From assembly GCA_023384675.1 (NCBI GenBank), contig JAHDVK010000010.1, positions 62,001 to 126,000 of the forward strand: 64,000 nucleotides of DNA, given 5' to 3'. The notes below the pieces were generated by a model that saw only the letters and a program-made list of their open reading frames with translations, was not told the DNA's origin and did not search any database. Positions 3,801 through 11,263 of the stretch are shown here, piece by piece. A program made the position numbers and the translations under genes. Source of the DNA: Bryobacteraceae bacterium. Its GTDB lineage: Bacteria > Acidobacteriota > Terriglobia > Bryobacterales > Bryobacteraceae. Positions within the stretch are counted from its first letter, which is position 1. Each line of letters starts with the position of its first letter.

Positions 3801-4436
3801 CTCCGCCACCTGATCCAACAACAGCAGGTTCGGCAGAAAGTCCAGCGCGTTCGTCCGGATGAAATTGTCCTGAATATTCACGCCGTCAATCGTCACGTTC
3901 GTGAACGAAGGCCGCATCCCGTTGATCGATGTGTTCGACCGGTTGTTCGAGTTCACCCCCGCCTGGGTCGTGATCAGCGCCAGCGGCGAACGGTTTAACT
4001 GTGGCAGGCGCCGGATCTGTTCGTTCGTAATCGAGGTCGCAATCTCCGCGTTCGAGGTCTGCACGCCCTGCACTTCGGCGGTCACTTCCACCACCTCGGC
4101 CTGCGTGCTCACTTCCAGCGTAATCGGCGGCATCGACAGCGTCAGACCCGCGTCCACCTTGATCCCGCGAATGATCTGCTTCTGAAACCCTTTGGACTCG
4201 AAGGAAAGATCATAGAAGATCGGGCGGACGCCAACAAATTGAAAAAGCCCTTCCTGGTTCGTTTCCCGTATTGCCACAGGCGAGGTACCCCCCTGAACAA
4301 ACAGTTGTATGTTCGTTCCGGGAATCGCTGCGCCGGAAGCATCGAGCACCAGGCCGGAGATCTGGCCCGTGCTTTGAGCGGACAGCACGCTAACAGTCAG
4401 AGCGGCTGCCAATACCAACCATAAACTGAGCTTCAT
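867..4436 (-). CDS. Oar-like TonB-dependent receptor with carboxypeptidase-regulatory domain
   Basis: A 1189-residue outer-membrane protein. It has a signal peptide (residues 1-20, ending SVLSAQ), a carboxypeptidase-regulatory-like beta-sandwich (about 25-105, starting GQISGLVLDASGAAIPG), a plug-like region with LPQLNRSPLALI and the INGMRPSFTNVTIDGVNIQD stretch, then a long Asn/Phe/Tyr-rich beta barrel ending in an aromatic residue (LYYRF), as expected for a BAM-recognised outer-membrane protein. Large families of such Oar/SusC-like proteins are characteristic of Acidobacteriota. The ATG at 4436 is preferred over the upstream in-frame start at 4490, because GGGGAG lies just before it and the signal peptide begins there. 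Ligand is unknown; a carbohydrate or peptide is an inference from the family. It precedes the phosphotriesterase-like gene on the same strand. Confidence 0.9.
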   Translation of the reverse strand: MKLSLWLVLAAALTVSVLSAQSTGQISGLVLDASGAAIPGTNIQLFVQGGTSPVAIRETNQEGLFQFVGVRPIFYDLSFESKGFQKQIIRGIKVDAGLTLSMPPITLEVSTQAEVVEVTAEVQGVQTSNAEIATSITNEQIRRLPQLNRSPLALITTQAGVNSNNRSNTSINGMRPSFTNVTIDGVNIQDNFIRTNALDFLPNLLLLDQVAEMTVASSNTSAADGGGASQVKFVTPSGTNAYRGSLYWFNRNNIASANTWFGNQNNTPRPFLNQNQTGGALGGPVVKDKLFFYGNYELFRLRQQSNATRTILRPDARNGILTYRDTAGNVRTINPLTTVGVNADPRTRALIGMIPGPENINRDDIGDGLNTGGYQFNIQNNRTRDNITAKVDYVANTKNVFAWTLLWNRDIVDRPDLANNFSTAPKVKNDGATRMTQGTWRFSPSGSFTNELRGGFNLTPGVFLTDENFGNAIFLLPLVSNPINTFRAQGRYTDTYNFQNNSSYFKGKHSMAFGVQFQKINADPFNDALNLPEYAMGISAANPNGLDGSNVPGLRATDVGIANGLLSLHAGFLSSVSQRFNITGIDSGFVDGATQARRLRMNNISLYFNDTWRVSRKLTLTMGVRWETYSRVTEKDGLILLPRLENGNVIQTLANPNGVLDFAGTVLNRPWYGKDLNNFGPNLGIAYQPFGDNKTVIRAGFSTQFPNDDFIRSVDNNVLTNRGLFQDITVPNLTSVASNPTRVPVPAFKVPRTFAENFAADPGSAFGMPDPNLRTPYVMQWNFGVQREIARGVLDVRYVGNRAVKQFRAFDYNQVLVRPDELPGYFDDFMRAYENGLRSLAATGAFRPIYNPNIAGSQPLPFFNQLPSGGLLTNATIIGNIQRGEVGNLASVYQTNRLNGPFSFFPNRNALATNMMSNYSATAYHGLQVDFRRTFRSGVQVQANYTYSKVMSDAAGESQARFEPFLDIRNPGIEYARVPFDLTHAFKLNGVWDLPFGRGQRFEIANPVLNQIFGGWTISGFMTLQSGNPFSITSGRGTLNRAARSGVNTAIAFADKNQLDGNVFGFRMTPDGPFFVNANVIGADTRGVQPDGRAPFDGQVFYNPGPGNLGTLQRNYFSGPRFYNTDLAVLKTFPITETQRVEFRSEWFNFTNTPMFYYNGGNINSTNFGRITSTASARRVIQFGLYYRF

Positions 4437-4615
4437 TGAAGAACTCCCCAAAAGCAGTTCGGACCGCGGTCCCGTTACAGATGTGAACACGTTCCGTAAT
4501 GCGAATTTACCACAAGATAGCTCAAGATGAATCGCAAAGTTGCAGTTTCTCTACTCCGAAATGGGTATTCCGGCGCACTACCCGCGCCTGCTCCCCAACC
4601 GCTACAATCGAAACA

Positions 4616-5530
4616 ATGTCCCTTGTTATCGTCGGTTCCGTCGCCTACGACGGCCTCCAGACCCCCGCCGGCAAAGTGGATCGCGCCCTCGGCGGCGCCG
4701 CCACCTATATCGCCCTGGCCTCCTCCTACTTCGTCCCCTCCTCCATCGTCGCTGTAGTAGGTGACGATTTCGATCAGCAGGACTATAACTTCCTCGCTTC
4801 CCGCAACATCGGGCTCGAAGGCCTCGAACGCGTCCCCGGCAAAACCTTCTTCTGGGCCGGCGTCTACAGCGACGACATGAACGACCGCACCACCCTCACC
4901 ACCGAACTCAACGTCTTCGCGGACTTCAACCCCAAACTCCCCGCCGCGTACCGCGCCCGCCCCTACCTCATGCTCGGCAACATCCAGCCCGCCCTCCAGC
5001 GCTCCGTCCGGGCCCAGATGAACGCGCCGCGTCTCGCCGGCGGCGACACGATGAACTTCTGGATCAACGACTTCCGCGCCGAACTGCTCGAAACCCTCAA
5101 GGACTGGGACTTCCTCCTCATTAACGACTCCGAAGCCCGCCTGCTCTCCGGCGAATCCAACCTCAAGCGCGCCGCCGCCGCCATCCGCGCCCTCGGCCCC
5201 CGCATCCTGGTGATCAAACGCGGCGAGTTCGGCGCCACGCTCTTCCACGACGGCGGCTCCTTCTCCGTTCCCGGCTATCTGCTTGATTCCTTGAAAGATC
5301 CCACCGGCGCCGGCGACTGCTTCGCTGGCGGCTTCATCGGCTACCTCGCCTCCAGGGGCGTGTCCCTCGACGCCGCTGCCCCCGCCGCCGAACTCGCCCG
5401 CGCCGTCGTCTATGGCTCCGTCATGGGCAGCTTCTGCTGCGAAGCCTTCGGCGTGGACCGCTTCCGTACCCTCACCCGCGACGAAATCGATGCCCGCTTC
5501 GCCGAATTCCAGCAGTTCACGGCGTTCTAG
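4616..5530 (+). CDS. PfkB/ribokinase-family sugar kinase
   Basis: A 304-residue cytoplasmic kinase. The N-terminal region has the GG-containing substrate motif (ALGGAATYIALA) and the C-terminal signature DPTGAGDCFAGGF, which carries the anion hole and the catalytic aspartate. NDSEARLL and IKRGEFG are further PfkB marks. The family phosphorylates sugars or nucleosides using ATP; the substrate cannot be read from sequence. ATG 4616 is preferred over an in-frame start at 4499, because the MSLVIVGSVAYD stretch is the normal beginning of this fold. The next gene starts inside its 3' end (40-base overlap), suggesting coupled expression. It is divergent from the receptor gene. Confidence 0.88.
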   Translation: MSLVIVGSVAYDGLQTPAGKVDRALGGAATYIALASSYFVPSSIVAVVGDDFDQQDYNFLASRNIGLEGLERVPGKTFFWAGVYSDDMNDRTTLTTELNVFADFNPKLPAAYRARPYLMLGNIQPALQRSVRAQMNAPRLAGGDTMNFWINDFRAELLETLKDWDFLLINDSEARLLSGESNLKRAAAAIRALGPRILVIKRGEFGATLFHDGGSFSVPGYLLDSLKDPTGAGDCFAGGFIGYLASRGVSLDAAAPAAELARAVVYGSVMGSFCCEAFGVDRFRTLTRDEIDARFAEFQQFTAF

Positions 5531-7085
5531 CGTCTGGCTCCACGCCCTCGCCGCCCTCGTGCTGCTCGGCGCGCTCTCCGCCACCGCCTTGCACTACGTC
5601 CACGACCAGGGCTGGACCCTCTGGTACGGCGACGCCGAAGCCCACCTGAACATCGCCCGCCGCATCACCGATGCCCGCGAACCCGGCTACGAACAGATCG
5701 GAACCGTCTGGCTGCCCCTGCCCCACCTGCTTAGCGCGCCGCTCGCCCGCGACGATGAACGGTGGCAGGACGGCCGCGCCGGTGCGATTCCCGCCGCTGC
5801 GGGTTTCGTGCTCGGCGGTTTATTCCTGTTCCTGGCGATCCGGCTTGTTTTCAATAACGTGTGGGCTGCCTGGACCGCGCTGGGGGCGTACGCGCTCAAC
5901 CCCAACCTGCTCTACCTGCAAAGCGCGCCCATGACCGAACCGCTGTTCTTTGCGTGTTTTTTCGGGACGTTCTGGCTGCTTTTCCGCTATCGCGAGCGCC
6001 CCCACTGGGCGAACGCCGCCGGCGCGGGCCTGTTTGCGCTGCTCGGCGCGCTCACCCGCTACGATGGCTGGTTCGTGCTGCCGTTTTTCGCGTTTTTCGT
6101 GCTTTTTTGCGTCAAAAACCGGTCCTGGAAGCATGTTTTTGCCTTCTCCTGCATCGCCGCCCTCGGCCCGCTCTGGTGGCTCGCCCACAACCAGGTCATT
6201 TACTCGAACGTCCTCGAGTTCTACAACGGCCACTGGTCCGCCAAAGCGATATATCAGCGGGCGCTCGACGGCGGCATGGCGCCGTATCCCGGCGATCACG
6301 ACTTACTCAAGGCCGCACAATACTTTATGGCCGCGGCGCGGCTCTGCCTCGGCTCGGCGCTGTTCTGGGTGGGATTGATCGGGGCGGCGGCGGCGGCGTG
6401 GCTGCGGGCATGGTGGGCGCTGGGGCTATGTCTTGTGCTGCCAGTGTTTTACGTGCTCAGCCTGTACTCTTCGGGCACCCCCATCTTCGTGCCGCACTTG
6501 TGGCCGAACAGCTACTACAACACCCGCTACGGCTTGAATCTGTTGCCTTTAGCCGCGCTGGGCAGCGCGGCGCTGGTGACGCTCGCGCCGAAGCGCTTCC
6601 GGTGGGCTTCCGCAGCCGTTTTTTTGGCGATTTTTGCGTCATTTTGGGCCATAAAACCCTCTCCGGAACGCGTTATTTGCTGGAAAGAATCGCAGGTGAA
6701 CTCCGAGCACCGCCGCTTCTGGACCGCCGAAGCCGCCGCCTACCTCGGCCCGCGCTACAAGCCCGGCGCGGGCATCTTTATGATGTTCGGCGACTTAACC
6801 GGCATCCTCCGCGCGGCGGGCATCCCGCTGCGCGAGTCCTTCCACGAATCCGACCGCCCCCCCTGGATGGCAGCCGCGGCGCGCCCCGAATTGTTTTTGC
6901 GCGAGGAATGGGCCATATCCTTCTCGGGCGATGCGGTTTCGCGAACGATGCACCGGCTGGGGCGGGGTTCGCCGCGGTATCAATGTGTGAGAATGATCAG
7001 CACCAAGGGATCACCCGTGGTCGAGATCTGGAGGCGTATCAATGACCCGGATACCATTCACCAAAGCGCATGGCGCGCGCAATGA
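5490..7085 (+). CDS. GT39-like multi-pass membrane glycosyltransferase
   Basis: About 531 residues with roughly ten hydrophobic helices. The first periplasmic loop carries WYGDAEAHLNIARR, and a later segment has SAPMTEPLFF, both typical of ArnT/PMT-like enzymes that move a sugar from a polyprenyl-phosphate donor in the membrane. A soluble C-terminal tail follows (about 410-530). Start ATG 5490 lies within the end of the kinase gene and there is no strong ribosome-binding site; a start further downstream is not offered by any ATG before the first helix. The 3' end overlaps dapF by 44 bases in another frame. Acceptor and sugar are unknown. Confidence 0.75.
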   Translation: MPASPNSSSSRRSSVWLHALAALVLLGALSATALHYVHDQGWTLWYGDAEAHLNIARRITDAREPGYEQIGTVWLPLPHLLSAPLARDDERWQDGRAGAIPAAAGFVLGGLFLFLAIRLVFNNVWAAWTALGAYALNPNLLYLQSAPMTEPLFFACFFGTFWLLFRYRERPHWANAAGAGLFALLGALTRYDGWFVLPFFAFFVLFCVKNRSWKHVFAFSCIAALGPLWWLAHNQVIYSNVLEFYNGHWSAKAIYQRALDGGMAPYPGDHDLLKAAQYFMAAARLCLGSALFWVGLIGAAAAAWLRAWWALGLCLVLPVFYVLSLYSSGTPIFVPHLWPNSYYNTRYGLNLLPLAALGSAALVTLAPKRFRWASAAVFLAIFASFWAIKPSPERVICWKESQVNSEHRRFWTAEAAAYLGPRYKPGAGIFMMFGDLTGILRAAGIPLRESFHESDRPPWMAAAARPELFLREEWAISFSGDAVSRTMHRLGRGSPRYQCVRMISTKGSPVVEIWRRINDPDTIHQSAWRAQ

Positions 7086-7839
7086 CTTTCTTCTGACCTG
7101 GGCGCACGAGGCCCCGCAATCGAACCTGCGGGCGGCAGCCATCGCCATCATGGACCGCCATGCGGGTGTGGGCGCCGACGGCTGGCTGCTCGTCAGCCCG
7201 CCGCGCGAACCGGAACCCGCGTCCATCCGCTTGTTCAACCCCGACGGCGGCGAAGTGGAGATCTCCGGCAACGGCACGCGCTGCGCCGCGGCGTTTCTCG
7301 CCGATTCCGGCCACACGGCTGAGCAAGTGCAGATCCGCACCGGCGCGGGGGTCAAGGATCTGAGGCTGCTCGAGCGCGGCGGCCTGCGCTTTCAGTTCGA
7401 GATGGACATGGGCGAGGTGCAGTGCGTCGCGCTCACACACACGCTGATTCTGCGCGGCGGCGCGCGCGAGGCCACGCTGCTTGACGCCGGCAATCCGCAG
7501 TGCGCGCTGTTCGTGGAGGACTTCGAGTTCGACTGGAAGTCGCTCGGCGCGGAGATCGAAGTCCATCCCGACTTTCCGAACCGGACCAACGTGAGCTTTG
7601 TCCGCGTGGTGGACCGCCGCACGCTGGATGTGCGCTTCTTCGAACGCGGCGCGGGCTTCACGATGAGTTCGGGGACCGGCTCGACAGGGGCCTTCGCAGC
7701 GGCCCGCGCGCGGGCGCTCGTGGATGACGAAGTGACGGTACGGACCCTGGCCGGGGACCTGGCGCTGCGGTATGAAAACGGCCACATTCTGCTGCAAGGC
7801 CCGGCGGAGATCGTGGCGGGCGGCGAGTTTTATCTGTAG
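7042..7839 (+). CDS. dapF: Diaminopimelate epimerase-like protein, second active-site Cys replaced by Ser
   Basis: A 265-residue protein with the DapF fold: FTKAHGARNDF at the start, the first half-site ISGNGTRCAA with its catalytic cysteine, NVSFV in the middle, and FERGAG before the second half-site. DapF interconverts LL- and meso-diaminopimelate for lysine and peptidoglycan, using two cysteines as acid and base. Here the expected ACGTGAC-like second motif reads MSSGTGST, so the second catalytic cysteine appears to be serine. The protein may still be an epimerase of altered activity, or act on another amino acid. It overlaps the upstream membrane-protein gene by 44 bases. No other dapF is in this window. 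Confidence 0.82.
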   Translation: MTRIPFTKAHGARNDFLLTWAHEAPQSNLRAAAIAIMDRHAGVGADGWLLVSPPREPEPASIRLFNPDGGEVEISGNGTRCAAAFLADSGHTAEQVQIRTGAGVKDLRLLERGGLRFQFEMDMGEVQCVALTHTLILRGGAREATLLDAGNPQCALFVEDFEFDWKSLGAEIEVHPDFPNRTNVSFVRVVDRRTLDVRFFERGAGFTMSSGTGSTGAFAAARARALVDDEVTVRTLAGDLALRYENGHILLQGPAEIVAGGEFYL

Positions 7840-7882
7840 CGGGGAAGTCCGTTGACAACAGAGCAGGCCGGGTGAAAGCCAG

Positions 7883-8533
7883 CTATTCGGTGAGGTGGTG
7901 CTGGATGGCGAACTTCACGAGGCCGGCGACATCGTGGATATCGAGTTTACGCATGAGGCTTGAGCGGTAGGTATCCACGGTCTTGGGGCTGAGGTTGAGG
8001 CGTGCGGCGATCTCTTTCGCGCGAATCCCCTCGACGAGTAGAGAGAACACCTGGTGTTCGCGGGCGCTGAGGGTGTCGAGTGGCTGCCTTGAAGACCGCG
8101 GCCCATCGGACTGGAACAGTTGATGGACGTCGATACCCGGGGAGACGTAGATGCCGCCCGCGGCCATGCGTTCGAGCCCTTCGAGCATGGGCTCGGCCGG
8201 GTCGGACCGGAGGAAGATGCCGCGGGCTTGGGCGCGCAGGATTTCCAGGAAGGTCTTGCGGTCATGGCGGAGGGTGAGAATACCGGCGCGGGTGGGTAAC
8301 TGGCTGTCTTCGATGCGGCGTGCAATTTCGAGAACATGCAGGCCATGGAGGGCGAGATCGAGAAGAGCGAGATCGGGCTGCTGTTCGCGCAGCCGGGCCC
8401 AAGCCGCCTCGCCATCGGCGGCCTGGGCCACGACGCGGAAGCGTCCGGATGTCTCGCAGAGGCAGGCCACGCCTTCCCGGATGAGAGCGAACTCATCGGC
8501 CACGAGCAAAGTGAGCGGAGCGGCATCCGCCAT
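7883..8533 (-). CDS. NarL/LuxR-type response regulator
   Basis: A 216-residue two-domain regulator. The receiver domain (about 7-125) has the acidic pair D13-E14 and the probable phosphoacceptor D59 in LALLDLALHG; the usual conserved lysine near the end of the domain reads as arginine (IFLRSD). The C-terminal GerE-type helix-turn-helix (about 152-216) contains LSAREHQVFSLL, IAARLNLSPKTVDTYRS and LMRKL. No cognate kinase is beside it. It lies 29 bases downstream of the STAS gene on the same strand, so it may belong to one regulatory operon with the anti-sigma genes. Lysine-to-arginine change may alter phospho-signalling; that is inference. Confidence 0.9.
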   Translation of the reverse strand: MADAAPLTLLVADEFALIREGVACLCETSGRFRVVAQAADGEAAWARLREQQPDLALLDLALHGLHVLEIARRIEDSQLPTRAGILTLRHDRKTFLEILRAQARGIFLRSDPAEPMLEGLERMAAGGIYVSPGIDVHQLFQSDGPRSSRQPLDTLSAREHQVFSLLVEGIRAKEIAARLNLSPKTVDTYRSSLMRKLDIHDVAGLVKFAIQHHLTE

Positions 8534-8562
8534 GGACAGGATCCCGGGCGACGGCCTCCGCG

Positions 8563-8910
8563 CTAGTCCTGGAAGCTGGACAGCGCGACGGCCTCGTCGT
8601 CGAACACCTCGAAGACGGTGTAGAGTTTGGTGATCTGCAACAGGTCCTGCACGCGTTTGGTGAGGTTGAGCAGTTTCAGCTGGCCGCCGGCGTTCGAGAC
8701 GCTGGTGAAGCCGGAGACCATTTCACCGATGCCCGAGCTGTCGATGTAGCTGATCTCGGCGAGGTTCAGCAGGATTTTTTTCTGGCCCTTGGCGACCAAG
8801 TCCTTGACCGCCTCCCGGAACGCCGTAGAACCCTCGCCGAGGGTGATGCGTCCGGCGGCGTCGATCACAGTCACGTCCCCGATTTGCCGGGATGACATTT
8901 TCACGCTCAT
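8563..8910 (-). CDS. STAS-domain anti-sigma factor antagonist
   Basis: A 115-residue single STAS domain similar to SpoIIAA/RsbV. The motif YIDSSGIGEM (residues 55-64) holds the serine that is phosphorylated by the partner kinase in this family. In the unphosphorylated state such proteins bind the anti-sigma factor and free the sigma factor. Its natural partner is the ATPase-domain protein encoded just upstream (8925 onwards, a 14-base gap). The strand, spacing and family pairing make a partner-switching module likely; the target sigma factor is not evident here. Confidence 0.9.
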   Translation of the reverse strand: MSVKMSSRQIGDVTVIDAAGRITLGEGSTAFREAVKDLVAKGQKKILLNLAEISYIDSSGIGEMVSGFTSVSNAGGQLKLLNLTKRVQDLLQITKLYTVFEVFDDEAVALSSFQD

Positions 8911-8924
8911 GCGTTAACTACCTC

Positions 8925-9410
8925 CTAGGAATTCGCCGCCTCGGGGGCGGAGGCCGCCGATGGATCCAAGGGCGGCAATCTTTTGACCAGCCGGGCCAGG
9001 GTGCCTTTTGAAGGCGCCGGCCCCACTTCAAATTCGTCTGTGAAAGCCCGAATCAGGGTCAGGCCCCGGCCGGACTGGTTGAGCAAATTTTCCTCGGCGA
9101 GCGGGTCGGACTGCTCGTCGAGGCGGAAACCGTCGCCCTCGTCGGTGATGGCGACTTCGATGGCTCCGCGTTTGCGGGCGACCACGAAGCGGACGCGCTT
9201 GTTCGAGCTGTAGCGGTTGCCGTGGACGACGGCGTTGACCATGGCCTCGCGCACGGCGTAGCCGAAGCGGAAGATTTCCTCCTCGGGGAAGCCCATGGCG
9301 GAGGCGGCCTCGGTGACGCGGACTTCGGCTGCGTCCACGCTATCCAAGGTGGATTCCATGGATTGATCGACGACAATATCTTCAGGCCGGTCCGGAGTGC
9401 CCATGCGCAT
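8925..9410 (-). CDS. RsbW/SpoIIAB-like anti-sigma regulatory ATPase
   Basis: A 161-residue GHKL-type ATPase domain. The N-box is EAMVNAVVHGN, the G1 box is DEGDGF, and the G2 region is SGRGLTLIRAF. These features match anti-sigma serine kinases that phosphorylate a STAS antagonist and sequester a sigma factor. Two ATGs (9410 and 9404) and a later one (9359) are possible starts; none has a strong ribosome-binding site, and a 62-residue N-terminal extension to 9596 is unlikely, because it is proline/arginine rich and unlike the family. It heads the three-gene set with the STAS protein and the response regulator. Confidence 0.85.
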   Translation of the reverse strand: MRMGTPDRPEDIVVDQSMESTLDSVDAAEVRVTEAASAMGFPEEEIFRFGYAVREAMVNAVVHGNRYSSNKRVRFVVARKRGAIEVAITDEGDGFRLDEQSDPLAEENLLNQSGRGLTLIRAFTDEFEVGPAPSKGTLARLVKRLPPLDPSAASAPEAANS

Positions 9411-9624
9411 TCTATGCAGCCGCCCGCAAGCTGGCAGGAAAACGTTACGGTAAGCCAGTGTGGAGTGGAAAGTCAAGCAAGGGCGCGGGAGCCGGCGGAA
9501 GTTTCCGTGGCGGGGCCAAATTGGAGGCTCCACTCTGGCCTTCTGGGCGCGCATCCCAGGGGATGTTCGCGCGGCCGCGTCTATTCGCCCACGCATCGCC
9601 GGGCCTTGGGCAGGAGGCGGGCCG

Positions 9625-11166
9625 TCAGTCGGCTTTGCGGGTGGCTGACCACTTCAACCTGCCGTTGTTGTAGGTGCCGGACATCTCGTCGCCGGTGACT
9701 TCGCCCACATAGGTGTGGGCGCTGCTGACCCAGCGGAAGGTGATCTCTCCCGTGGCGGGATTGAAGCTGATGCGGTCGACCGGATGGCGGTTGACTCCGA
9801 ATTGGATGTATCCGGTCCACCCCGCTCCCGCCCGGCTGAACACCAGCGGCACGGTCACATTAGAAACCAGGGTCCAAGTCCCGGCGATATCCGCTTTCGG
9901 AGCAGCAGGGGCGGCGGGCTGGGTTGCCGGGGGGCGCGGCGCAGTCCGCGTGGTAGTGGTGGAGGGCGGAGCCGAGGCCGGGGCAGGCGCAGTGGCGCCG
10001 CGTCTCGCCCTCCACTTCAACCTGCCGTTGTTGTAGGTGCCGGACATCTCGTCGCCGGTGACTTCGCCCACATAGGTGTGGGCGCTGCTGACCCAGCGGA
10101 AGGTGATCTCTCCCGTGGCGGGATTGAAGCTGATGCGGTCGACCGGATGGCGGTTGACTCCGAATTGGATGTATCCGGTCCACCCCGCTCCCGCCCGGCT
10201 GAACACCAGCGGCACGGTCACATTAGAAACCAGGGTCCAAGTCCCGGCGATATCCGCTTTCGGAGCAGCAGGGGCGGCGGGCTGGGTTGCCGGGGGGCGC
10301 GGCGCAGTCCGCGTGGTAGTGGTGGAGGGCGGAGCCGAGGCCGGGGCAGGCGCAGTGGCGCCGCGTCTCGCCCTCCACTTCAACCTGCCGTTGTTGTAGG
10401 TGCCGGACATCTCGTCGCCGGTGACTTCGCCCACATAGGTGTGGGCGCTGCTGACCCAGCGGAAGGTGATCTCTCCCGTGGCGGGATTGAAGCTGATGCG
10501 GTCGACCGGATGGCGGTTGACTCCGAATTGGATGTATCCGGTCCACCCCGCTCCCGCCCGGCTGAACACCAGCGGCACGGTCACATTAGAAACCAGGGTC
10601 CAGGCGCCGGCGATATCCGCTCGGACGGCTGCCGGTTTGGCGGGGGCGGGGGCGGGGGGCCGGGTCGCCGGGGCGGGTGTTGGGGTTGCAGCGGGCGGCG
10701 GAGACAACCGCTTCCAGACCACGCGCCCGCCGCCGCCGCCCGAGGGCAGTTCCGTGCGCCCGTCCAGTTCCACACCATCGGCGGAAAGTCTCATGGAGTA
10801 GGACTGGGTATAGCCACTGTGAGAGGGCTTCAGCCCTTCGGTGTAGCGCAGTAAACCGGTGAGGACGCCATCGCGGTTGATGCGGCCCTCCATCCGCCAG
10901 CTGAAGACGGTCCCATAGTCAGTGCGGTGGGTATGCGTGGCGACGAAGGAACCGGCCGTTTGTTTGATTTCGATCTGGTGGTGCGAGAAGGTGTCGAACC
11001 AGGAGCCTTCGATACTCGGGAAACCCTGGCGGTCGATGGCCGATTGTGGTGATGCGGCCAACGTCATGGCTGGAGGGAGCGGCGCGGGATGGCCAAGCGC
11101 CGCCTGGCCGGCGTCGCACACGCTCCCGGAAAAGAGAGAAGCTGTGAGTAAGACCAGATAGGACAT
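9625..11166 (-). CDS. Secreted protein with three near-identical 121-residue repeats
   Basis: A 513-residue protein of unknown function. A signal peptide (MSYLVLLTASLFSGSVC) is followed by a unique domain (about 35-150, SIEGSWFDTFSHHQIEI), then three copies of an 83-residue unit (ADIAGTWTLVSNVTVPLVFS to NNGRLKW), separated by 38-residue Pro/Ala/Thr linkers. Each unit looks like a small lipocalin-like or beta-rich fold, judged from alternating hydrophobics; this is inference. ATG 11166 is chosen because GGAGAG lies just upstream. The repeats are identical at DNA level (see repeat entries), implying recent duplication or gene conversion. It is divergent from tatA. Confidence 0.8.
   Translation of the reverse strand: MSYLVLLTASLFSGSVCDAGQAALGHPAPLPPAMTLAASPQSAIDRQGFPSIEGSWFDTFSHHQIEIKQTAGSFVATHTHRTDYGTVFSWRMEGRINRDGVLTGLLRYTEGLKPSHSGYTQSYSMRLSADGVELDGRTELPSGGGGGRVVWKRLSPPPAATPTPAPATRPPAPAPAKPAAVRADIAGAWTLVSNVTVPLVFSRAGAGWTGYIQFGVNRHPVDRISFNPATGEITFRWVSSAHTYVGEVTGDEMSGTYNNGRLKWRARRGATAPAPASAPPSTTTTRTAPRPPATQPAAPAAPKADIAGTWTLVSNVTVPLVFSRAGAGWTGYIQFGVNRHPVDRISFNPATGEITFRWVSSAHTYVGEVTGDEMSGTYNNGRLKWRARRGATAPAPASAPPSTTTTRTAPRPPATQPAAPAAPKADIAGTWTLVSNVTVPLVFSRAGAGWTGYIQFGVNRHPVDRISFNPATGEITFRWVSSAHTYVGEVTGDEMSGTYNNGRLKWSATRKAD
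9649..10011. repeat. 363-bp coding tandem repeat, copy A
   Basis: First copy (in plus-strand order) of an exact tandem duplication inside the secreted-protein gene. It matches copy B base for base over 363 bases, including the Pro/Ala/Thr linker. The period is 121 codons, so the frame is kept. Confidence 0.97.
10012..10374. repeat. 363-bp coding tandem repeat, copy B
   Basis: Second copy, identical to copy A along its whole length as read here, with no silent differences. Confidence 0.97.
10375..10602. repeat. 363-bp coding tandem repeat, partial copy C
   Basis: Third copy, identical to B for 228 bases; divergence begins at 10603, where the linker changes to a different Pro/Ala-rich sequence. 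It encodes the most N-terminal repeat of the protein. Confidence 0.95.
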
Positions 11167-11263
11167 CGGCTCTCCGTATCCGAATATCGGCAAATATATC
11201 AGGTGCGGCTGCGGGAGTCATGCGGCGGTGGGGGCGCCGCCAGCCCCCTCGGGTGCGGGCGCG

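Follow-up and report, generated by a model that had tools for sequence, protein, structure and literature searches.

A DapF-family protein with serine at both catalytic cysteine positions, a pairing found across much of Acidobacteriota

We analyzed a window of 64,000 nucleotides from a Bryobacteraceae bacterium (assembly GCA_023384675.1, contig JAHDVK010000010.1, positions 62,001 to 126,000 of the forward strand) that contains a gene of the dapF family, and we found that the encoded protein, judged by alignment, has serine at both of the positions where diaminopimelate (DAP) epimerases carry catalytic cysteines (Ser75 and Ser210). Comparison of homologous sequences indicates that the cysteine pair has been swapped together, as a unit, in an exchange that is concerted and conserved across much of the phylum. 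On the basis of its sequence and predicted structure, we give a probability of roughly 0.58 to the reading that this DapF-fold protein still converts LL-DAP to meso-DAP, with the serine pair Ser75/Ser210 taking the place of the cysteines.

RESULTS

Serines align with both catalytic cysteines

The window protein scored 190.8 bits against TIGR00652, the DapF equivalog profile (cut-off 114.65), and matched Pfam DAP_epimerase; its closest solved sequences are DapFs. The gene and the residues at issue are as follows (here and below, Ser/Ser, Cys/Cys and the like give the residues at the first and second catalytic positions).

7042-7839, plus strand: dapF-family gene, 265 amino acids, Ser/Ser at the catalytic positions; intact open reading frame (ORF) with Pfam DAP_epimerase and TIGR00652 matches
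7264-7266, plus strand: codon TCC of Ser75, in the place of the first catalytic cysteine (Cys73 of H. influenzae DapF, Hi-DapF; Anabaena Cys75) in the alignment to 9mro; helix 76-88 begins directly after it
7669-7671, plus strand: codon TCG of Ser210, in the place of the second catalytic cysteine (Hi-DapF Cys217, Anabaena Cys224) in the alignment; helix 211-223 begins directly after it
7282-7284, plus strand: codon of Cys81 (NGTRC), a side cysteine; cysteine in 142/162 Ser/Ser and 59/69 Cys/Cys proteins

An initial annotation of this DNA had proposed that serine stands at the second catalytic position, in MSSGTGST, and that NGTRC still contains the first catalytic cysteine. The former was borne out, as Ser210 aligned with the second catalytic cysteine of four solved DapFs. 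The latter picked the wrong residue: a passage on Hi-DapF places Gly74-Asn75 after Cys73 (PMC8225329), which puts the first catalytic cysteine immediately ahead of GNG. In the window protein this site reads EIS-GNG-TRC, with Ser75 directly before GNG. A section of the work on Anabaena DapF describes alkylation of Cys75 by LL-aziDAP and of Cys224 by DL-aziDAP (PMC12039745). By a hand count along the 9mro chain in the alignment, these two residues correspond to Ser75 and Ser210, so both catalytic cysteines are replaced by serine. Thus, the DapF cysteine pair (one before GNG, one in ACGTG) is absent from the window protein, and an alignment that puts another cysteine at the active site, which had been allowed for, was not what the solved DapFs gave. 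The suggestion that a Cys-to-Ser swap bears on the reaction stands in that catalytic cysteine is replaced by serine, but falls in its premise that one catalytic cysteine is left. Selenocysteine or recoding at positions 75 and 210 was ruled out, because the codons are TCC and TCG.

The serine pair is widespread and conserved

Among 234 unique DapF homologs, 162 were Ser/Ser, 69 Cys/Cys, 2 Cys/Ser and 1 Ala/Ser. This set consists of an earlier one (233 rows, duplicates included, of which 181 were Ser/Ser, 39 Cys/Cys, 1 Cys/Ser and 12 too partial to cover both sites) together with later rows, less identical or short rows. Serine stood at both sites in all 71 of the unique full-length Bryobacteraceae-type rows, and the ratio of nonsynonymous to synonymous substitution rates (dN/dS) of the window gene was 0.124 and 0.132 against two relatives; the gene is under purifying selection. 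Since 71/71 rows agree and dN/dS is 0.12-0.13, the serines are not due to chance or to a sequencing error in this codon region, which had been named as a possible cause. Of 200 genomes from the family, 189 carried a dapF gene, and 8 of these 189 had two matches.

In an Acidobacteriota sample of 137 genomes from 53 families (unique rows only, the window's own family included), 119 genomes were Ser/Ser, 17 Cys/Cys and 1 Cys/Ser; by family, 37 had only Ser/Ser, 13 only Cys/Cys, 2 both, and 1 Cys/Ser. Because the rows come from a search in which the window protein was the query, and from its listed matches, outside which the weakest lie, these counts under-sample distant Cys/Cys forms and favor relatives of the window protein. 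Overall, dapF was matched in 239 of 247 phylum genomes, more than once in 16 of the 239, and seven of those 16 belong to one family (f22). One f22 genome, G257, has a Ser/Ser gene and a second, low-scoring DapF-like gene that is Cys/Cys; from its sisters G225, G236 and G285 only Cys/Cys forms were obtained. The second gene of G257 and the Ser/Ser DapF of genome G066, which is among the 22 genomes checked for LysA below, are outside the 234 rows.

The pairing also occurs beyond the phylum. All six spirochaete genomes had a single DapF match, and it was Ser/Ser, as was a row (L113) from a metagenome-assembled genome (MAG) of Solirubrobacterales. In Lachnospirales, 48 of 58 genomes had a DapF match; among the rows read, 30 were Cys/Cys and three Ser/Ser, with both forms in G446 and G484 and a Ser/Ser protein as the single match in G456. 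The evidence from this order cuts both ways, with Ser/Ser as the sole DapF or as an extra gene. In another Lachnospirales genome, G468, the search matched two DapF-like proteins and no further one, a Cys/Ser form (L290) and an Ala/Ser form (L291), which are possibly intermediates or decaying copies. Bryobacteraceae-type Ser/Ser DapFs with PfkB-glycosyltransferase neighbors were also seen at loci labeled Arcobacter (L050) and Acidimicrobiia (L086), which are probably mislabeled or mis-binned MAGs.

We built trees without the two catalytic columns, using FastTree on 153 of the 234 unique rows, and IQ-TREE with approximately unbiased (AU) tests on 56. The distribution of Ser/Ser on these trees required five changes, at least three of them by strongly supported branches. 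One origin for all Ser/Ser rows was rejected by the AU test (p-AU 0.0008 for a single clade; p 0.024 without row L236), mainly through L236, and hence the statement of at least two origins leans largely on that one row. A single clade of Acidobacteriota with the spirochaete and Lachnospirales rows was not rejected (p 0.52; with the Cys/Ser row L290, and without L113 and L236).

The DAP ligands and the DapF fold are retained

According to a section of the Anabaena DapF report, Asn66, Asn164, Asn197, Glu215 and Arg216 grip the distal amino and carboxyl groups of DAP (PMC12039745). By alignment, the window protein has all of these residues for the distal half of the substrate, and they are nearly invariant among the 162 Ser/Ser proteins.

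7237-7239, plus strand: Asn66 (Anabaena Asn66), kept in 162/162
7492-7494, plus strand: Asn151 (Anabaena Asn164), kept in 161/162
7588-7590, plus strand: Asn183 (Anabaena Asn197), kept in 162/162
7642-7647, plus strand: Glu201-Arg202 (Anabaena Glu215-Arg216), each kept in 162/162
7498-7500, plus strand: Gln153, where the usual DapF residue is His (GNPH); Gln in 91 and His in 63 of 162 Ser/Ser, His in 65 and Gln in 4 of 69 Cys/Cys proteins

Since the residue at position 153 varies among Ser/Ser proteins, it is not a fixed new base.

An AlphaFold2 model (mean predicted local distance difference test score, pLDDT, 97.1) has the DapF fold with its two pseudo-symmetric domains, and each of the two serines immediately precedes a helix (first residues 76 and 211). 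The best solved structural match was 9mro (Z 36.8, root-mean-square deviation 1.6, 255 residues aligned, 38% identity), and the four top solved structures by Z were the ligand-bound DapFs 9mro, 3ejx and 5m47 and the O-ureidoserine racemase 7vdy. The proline racemase superfamily (ProR/4HypE/t3HypD) was more distant than DapF, its best hydroxyproline epimerase reaching Z 28.3 at 16% identity.

The genome appears to need an epimerase

The window gene is the only full dapF in its own genome. The earlier statement that there is no second dapF in the window thus holds genome-wide, except for a 73-residue C-terminal fragment on another contig. There (G000:C42:87167-87385; L013:1502-1724) the last 223 bases of dapF are copied with 96.4% identity, in frame behind unrelated sequence that on visual inspection resembles a transposase; in the fused ORF, Pfam recognized the DapF portion and nothing else.

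LysA, whose substrate is meso-DAP, is encoded on another contig (485 bits, cut-off 297.9). MurE scored above cut-off, lies away from the window locus and has the DNPR motif, which we take to be its meso-DAP signature; MurE above cut-off with DNPR was found in 13 of 13 genomes, 10 of them Ser/Ser. LysA was present in all 22 Ser/Ser Acidobacteriota genomes checked (above cut-off in 21), and above cut-off in 1 of 10 other genomes of the phylum (nine Cys/Cys, one Cys/Ser). This association follows lineages and so is not independent evidence; the Cys/Cys lineages may make lysine by another route. By eye, no lysine operon was recognizable in the LysA neighborhoods (15 kb, 11 genomes, 6 of the 11 listed).

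We then considered routes other than DapF. Ddh would make an epimerase unnecessary, and in this genome TIGR01921 gave none above cut-off, only a 22-bit partial match; it was above cut-off in 2 of 119 phylum genomes. DapL had been raised as an alternative, but its product is LL-DAP, so that meso-DAP would still need an epimerase and the route is no solution. We also rejected it because the best candidate fell below both DapL cut-offs (427 vs 593 bits for TIGR03540; 119 vs 364.7 for TIGR03542). This aminotransferase fits the alanine transaminase model better, and is below that cut-off too. A search of open-licence literature listings (subscription journals lay mostly outside this scope) found no measurement of meso-DAP in Acidobacteriota peptidoglycan.

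Neighboring genes

Two genes precede dapF in the window.

4499-5530, plus strand: PfkB-family kinase (PF00294), conserved upstream neighbor
5412-7085, plus strand: membrane glycosyltransferase-like ORF that runs into dapF (PF13231, 26.5 bits against a cut-off of 26.1, a weak match)

Of 49 named loci, 47 have a relative of the glycosyltransferase-like ORF and 43 have both genes; five of the other six are truncated by contig ends. The block of all three genes (4499-7839) is conserved in Bryobacteraceae-type loci, and its metabolic reason is not evident. In locus L295, from a genome of the same class, the genes that come after dapF are a muramoyltetrapeptide-carboxypeptidase-like one that stays under its cut-off (164 vs 378 bits) and that of the meso-DAP tripeptide ligase Mpl, which exceeds its own (456.7 vs 388.7 bits). 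The order in spirochaete locus L102 is nagA-like, alr, Ser/Ser dapF, M20 amidohydrolase, peptidase C26 (on the other strand) and lysA; the alr-family neighbor scored 377.7 bits against TIGR00492 in L095 and matched Pfam Ala_racemase in L102. The L295 and spirochaete contexts point to cell wall and lysine, and to no new pathway.

Rfam gave no match in window positions 4300-9800. Farther downstream, positions 9649-10621, within an ORF on the minus strand (9625-11193) that has no Pfam family above cut-off, form a tandem repeat with a 363-base coding unit (2.7 copies, 99% matches), which is a recent in-frame amplification.

DISCUSSION

The window protein appears suited to binding DAP in a pocket of the DapF type. 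The catalytic groups of canonical DapF, as described in part of the Anabaena study, are a thiolate and a thiol, which sit at the N-termini of two helices inside a closed pocket that is almost dry (PMC12039745). Going beyond binding, we somewhat favor a scheme in which LL-DAP would lose its alpha proton to Ser75 and would receive one on the other face from Ser210, located where the opposite helix starts, with the transfer taking place inside a closed, desolvated pocket. Corynebacterium DapF is switched off by a disulfide, according to an excerpt of its description (PMC5296763), and by analogy we would guess that one possible advantage of Ser/Ser is escape from inactivation of this type.

Several points speak against a working serine pair. 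Engineered Cys-to-Ser single mutants of PddB are given less than 0.1% activity in a passage on that enzyme (PMC8225329), and the activity of HisR C67S and C209S is called greatly reduced in part of another report (PMC11602996). These near-dead mutants are each changed at one site, and the window protein has serine at both; because its engineered relatives are nearly dead, a natural Ser/Ser pair is both surprising and testable. Moreover, Ser/Ser stands beside a Cys/Cys DapF in G446, G484 and G257, so in those genomes the Ser/Ser protein need not be an epimerase. Visual inspection of the conserved columns brought out no new conserved base, and for the LL-DAP-forming step the best DapL candidate of this genome is below its DapL cut-offs.

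The same mutants and the same coexistence with Cys/Cys proteins lend weight to the idea that the Ser/Ser protein has lost its epimerase function and instead binds DAP as a regulator, as a scaffold or in a different, weak reaction, while an unrelated enzyme, for instance a pyridoxal phosphate-dependent one of the alanine racemase type, makes meso-DAP. The alr-family gene adjoining Ser/Ser dapF in the spirochaete loci L095 and L102 would suit such a role. We regard this explanation as unlikely, although it deserves serious attention, as the Ser/Ser protein is the only full DapF of its genome and the sole DapF match in 6/6 spirochaetes, the DAP ligands are kept, and Ddh is below cut-off in its own genome. 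Furthermore, the residue is specifically serine at both sites in 162 of 234 rows, unlike what free drift would give.

We also considered that other cysteines might act as thiol base or acid, namely Cys81, Cys154 (GNPQC) or a cysteine at position 37. Two of these are indeed enriched in Ser/Ser over Cys/Cys proteins (Cys154 in 133/162 vs 11/69; Cys37 in 97% vs 35%). However, the window protein has Met37, Cys81 is found beside the catalytic cysteine in most Cys/Cys proteins as well, and three of the 162 Ser/Ser proteins lack cysteine at every listed position near the catalytic site, although they keep Cys37; such a substitution is thus improbable. We found no support for a one-cysteine DapF, in which Cys81 of NGTRC would serve as first catalytic residue and the second alone would be lost, and this is refuted by the alignment to solved, alkylated enzymes, in which the catalytic cysteine (Hi-DapF Cys73, Anabaena Cys75) precedes GNG and aligns with Ser75. 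Finally, an error of sequencing or assembly, or a decaying pseudogene, for which the recent fragment on the other contig might speak, is refuted by the same residues in 162 unique proteins of many genomes, the intact frame and the low dN/dS.

Returning to catalysis by the serine pair, we propose, as a tentative view that taken whole we would sooner doubt than assert, that the standard DapF of much of Acidobacteriota may be a cofactor-independent epimerase with serine-serine two-base transfer, in which the cysteine pair was swapped as a unit at least twice, possibly for immunity to disulfide formation. This class of enzymes is regarded as defined by its thiolate-thiol pair, at which covalent DapF inhibitors are aimed. 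If the Ser/Ser enzyme works, the thiolate requirement is too narrow, and resistance to thiol-directed inhibitors and to oxidation is expected; if it is inactive, a large part of the phylum must have an unrecognized route to meso-DAP. The Ser/Ser proteins tested pass TIGR00652, and annotation with this profile masks the question. Within the titles and abstracts of the open-licence literature, with the scope given above, no natural Ser/Ser DapF was described.

Among known systems, DapF itself (TIGR00652; PDB 9mro, 3ejx, 1gqz, 5m47) resembles the window protein in family score, fold, DAP ligands and the two helix-start positions, and differs in that both of its catalytic cysteines are serine here and in having GNPH for GNPQ. 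The engineered Hi-DapF C73S and C217S (PDB 2q9h, 2q9j) carry the same changes, but as single mutants made in the laboratory, whereas the window-type serines are natural, occur together and are conserved. A natural hydroxyl residue in place of one catalytic cysteine is known from the aspartate/glutamate racemases EcL-DER and MMP0739, which presumably belong to another racemase family.

Part of the report on these two racemases describes a Cys/Thr pair, linked to one-way conversion in EcL-DER and predicted to have this effect in MMP0739; they differ from the window protein in keeping one cysteine and in having threonine, not serine (PMC8142540). The 4-hydroxyproline epimerase Avi_7022 shares the general fold and, as an excerpt of the superfamily study states, works with Ser93/Cys255, and so with serine on one face; unlike the window protein, it keeps one cysteine and acts on another substrate (PMC4113996). 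The same excerpt notes clusters of the proline racemase superfamily that lack one or both cysteines (PMC4113996). Placed among these systems by its aligned residues, the Ser/Ser DapF is a variant within a known family, new in its paired serines.

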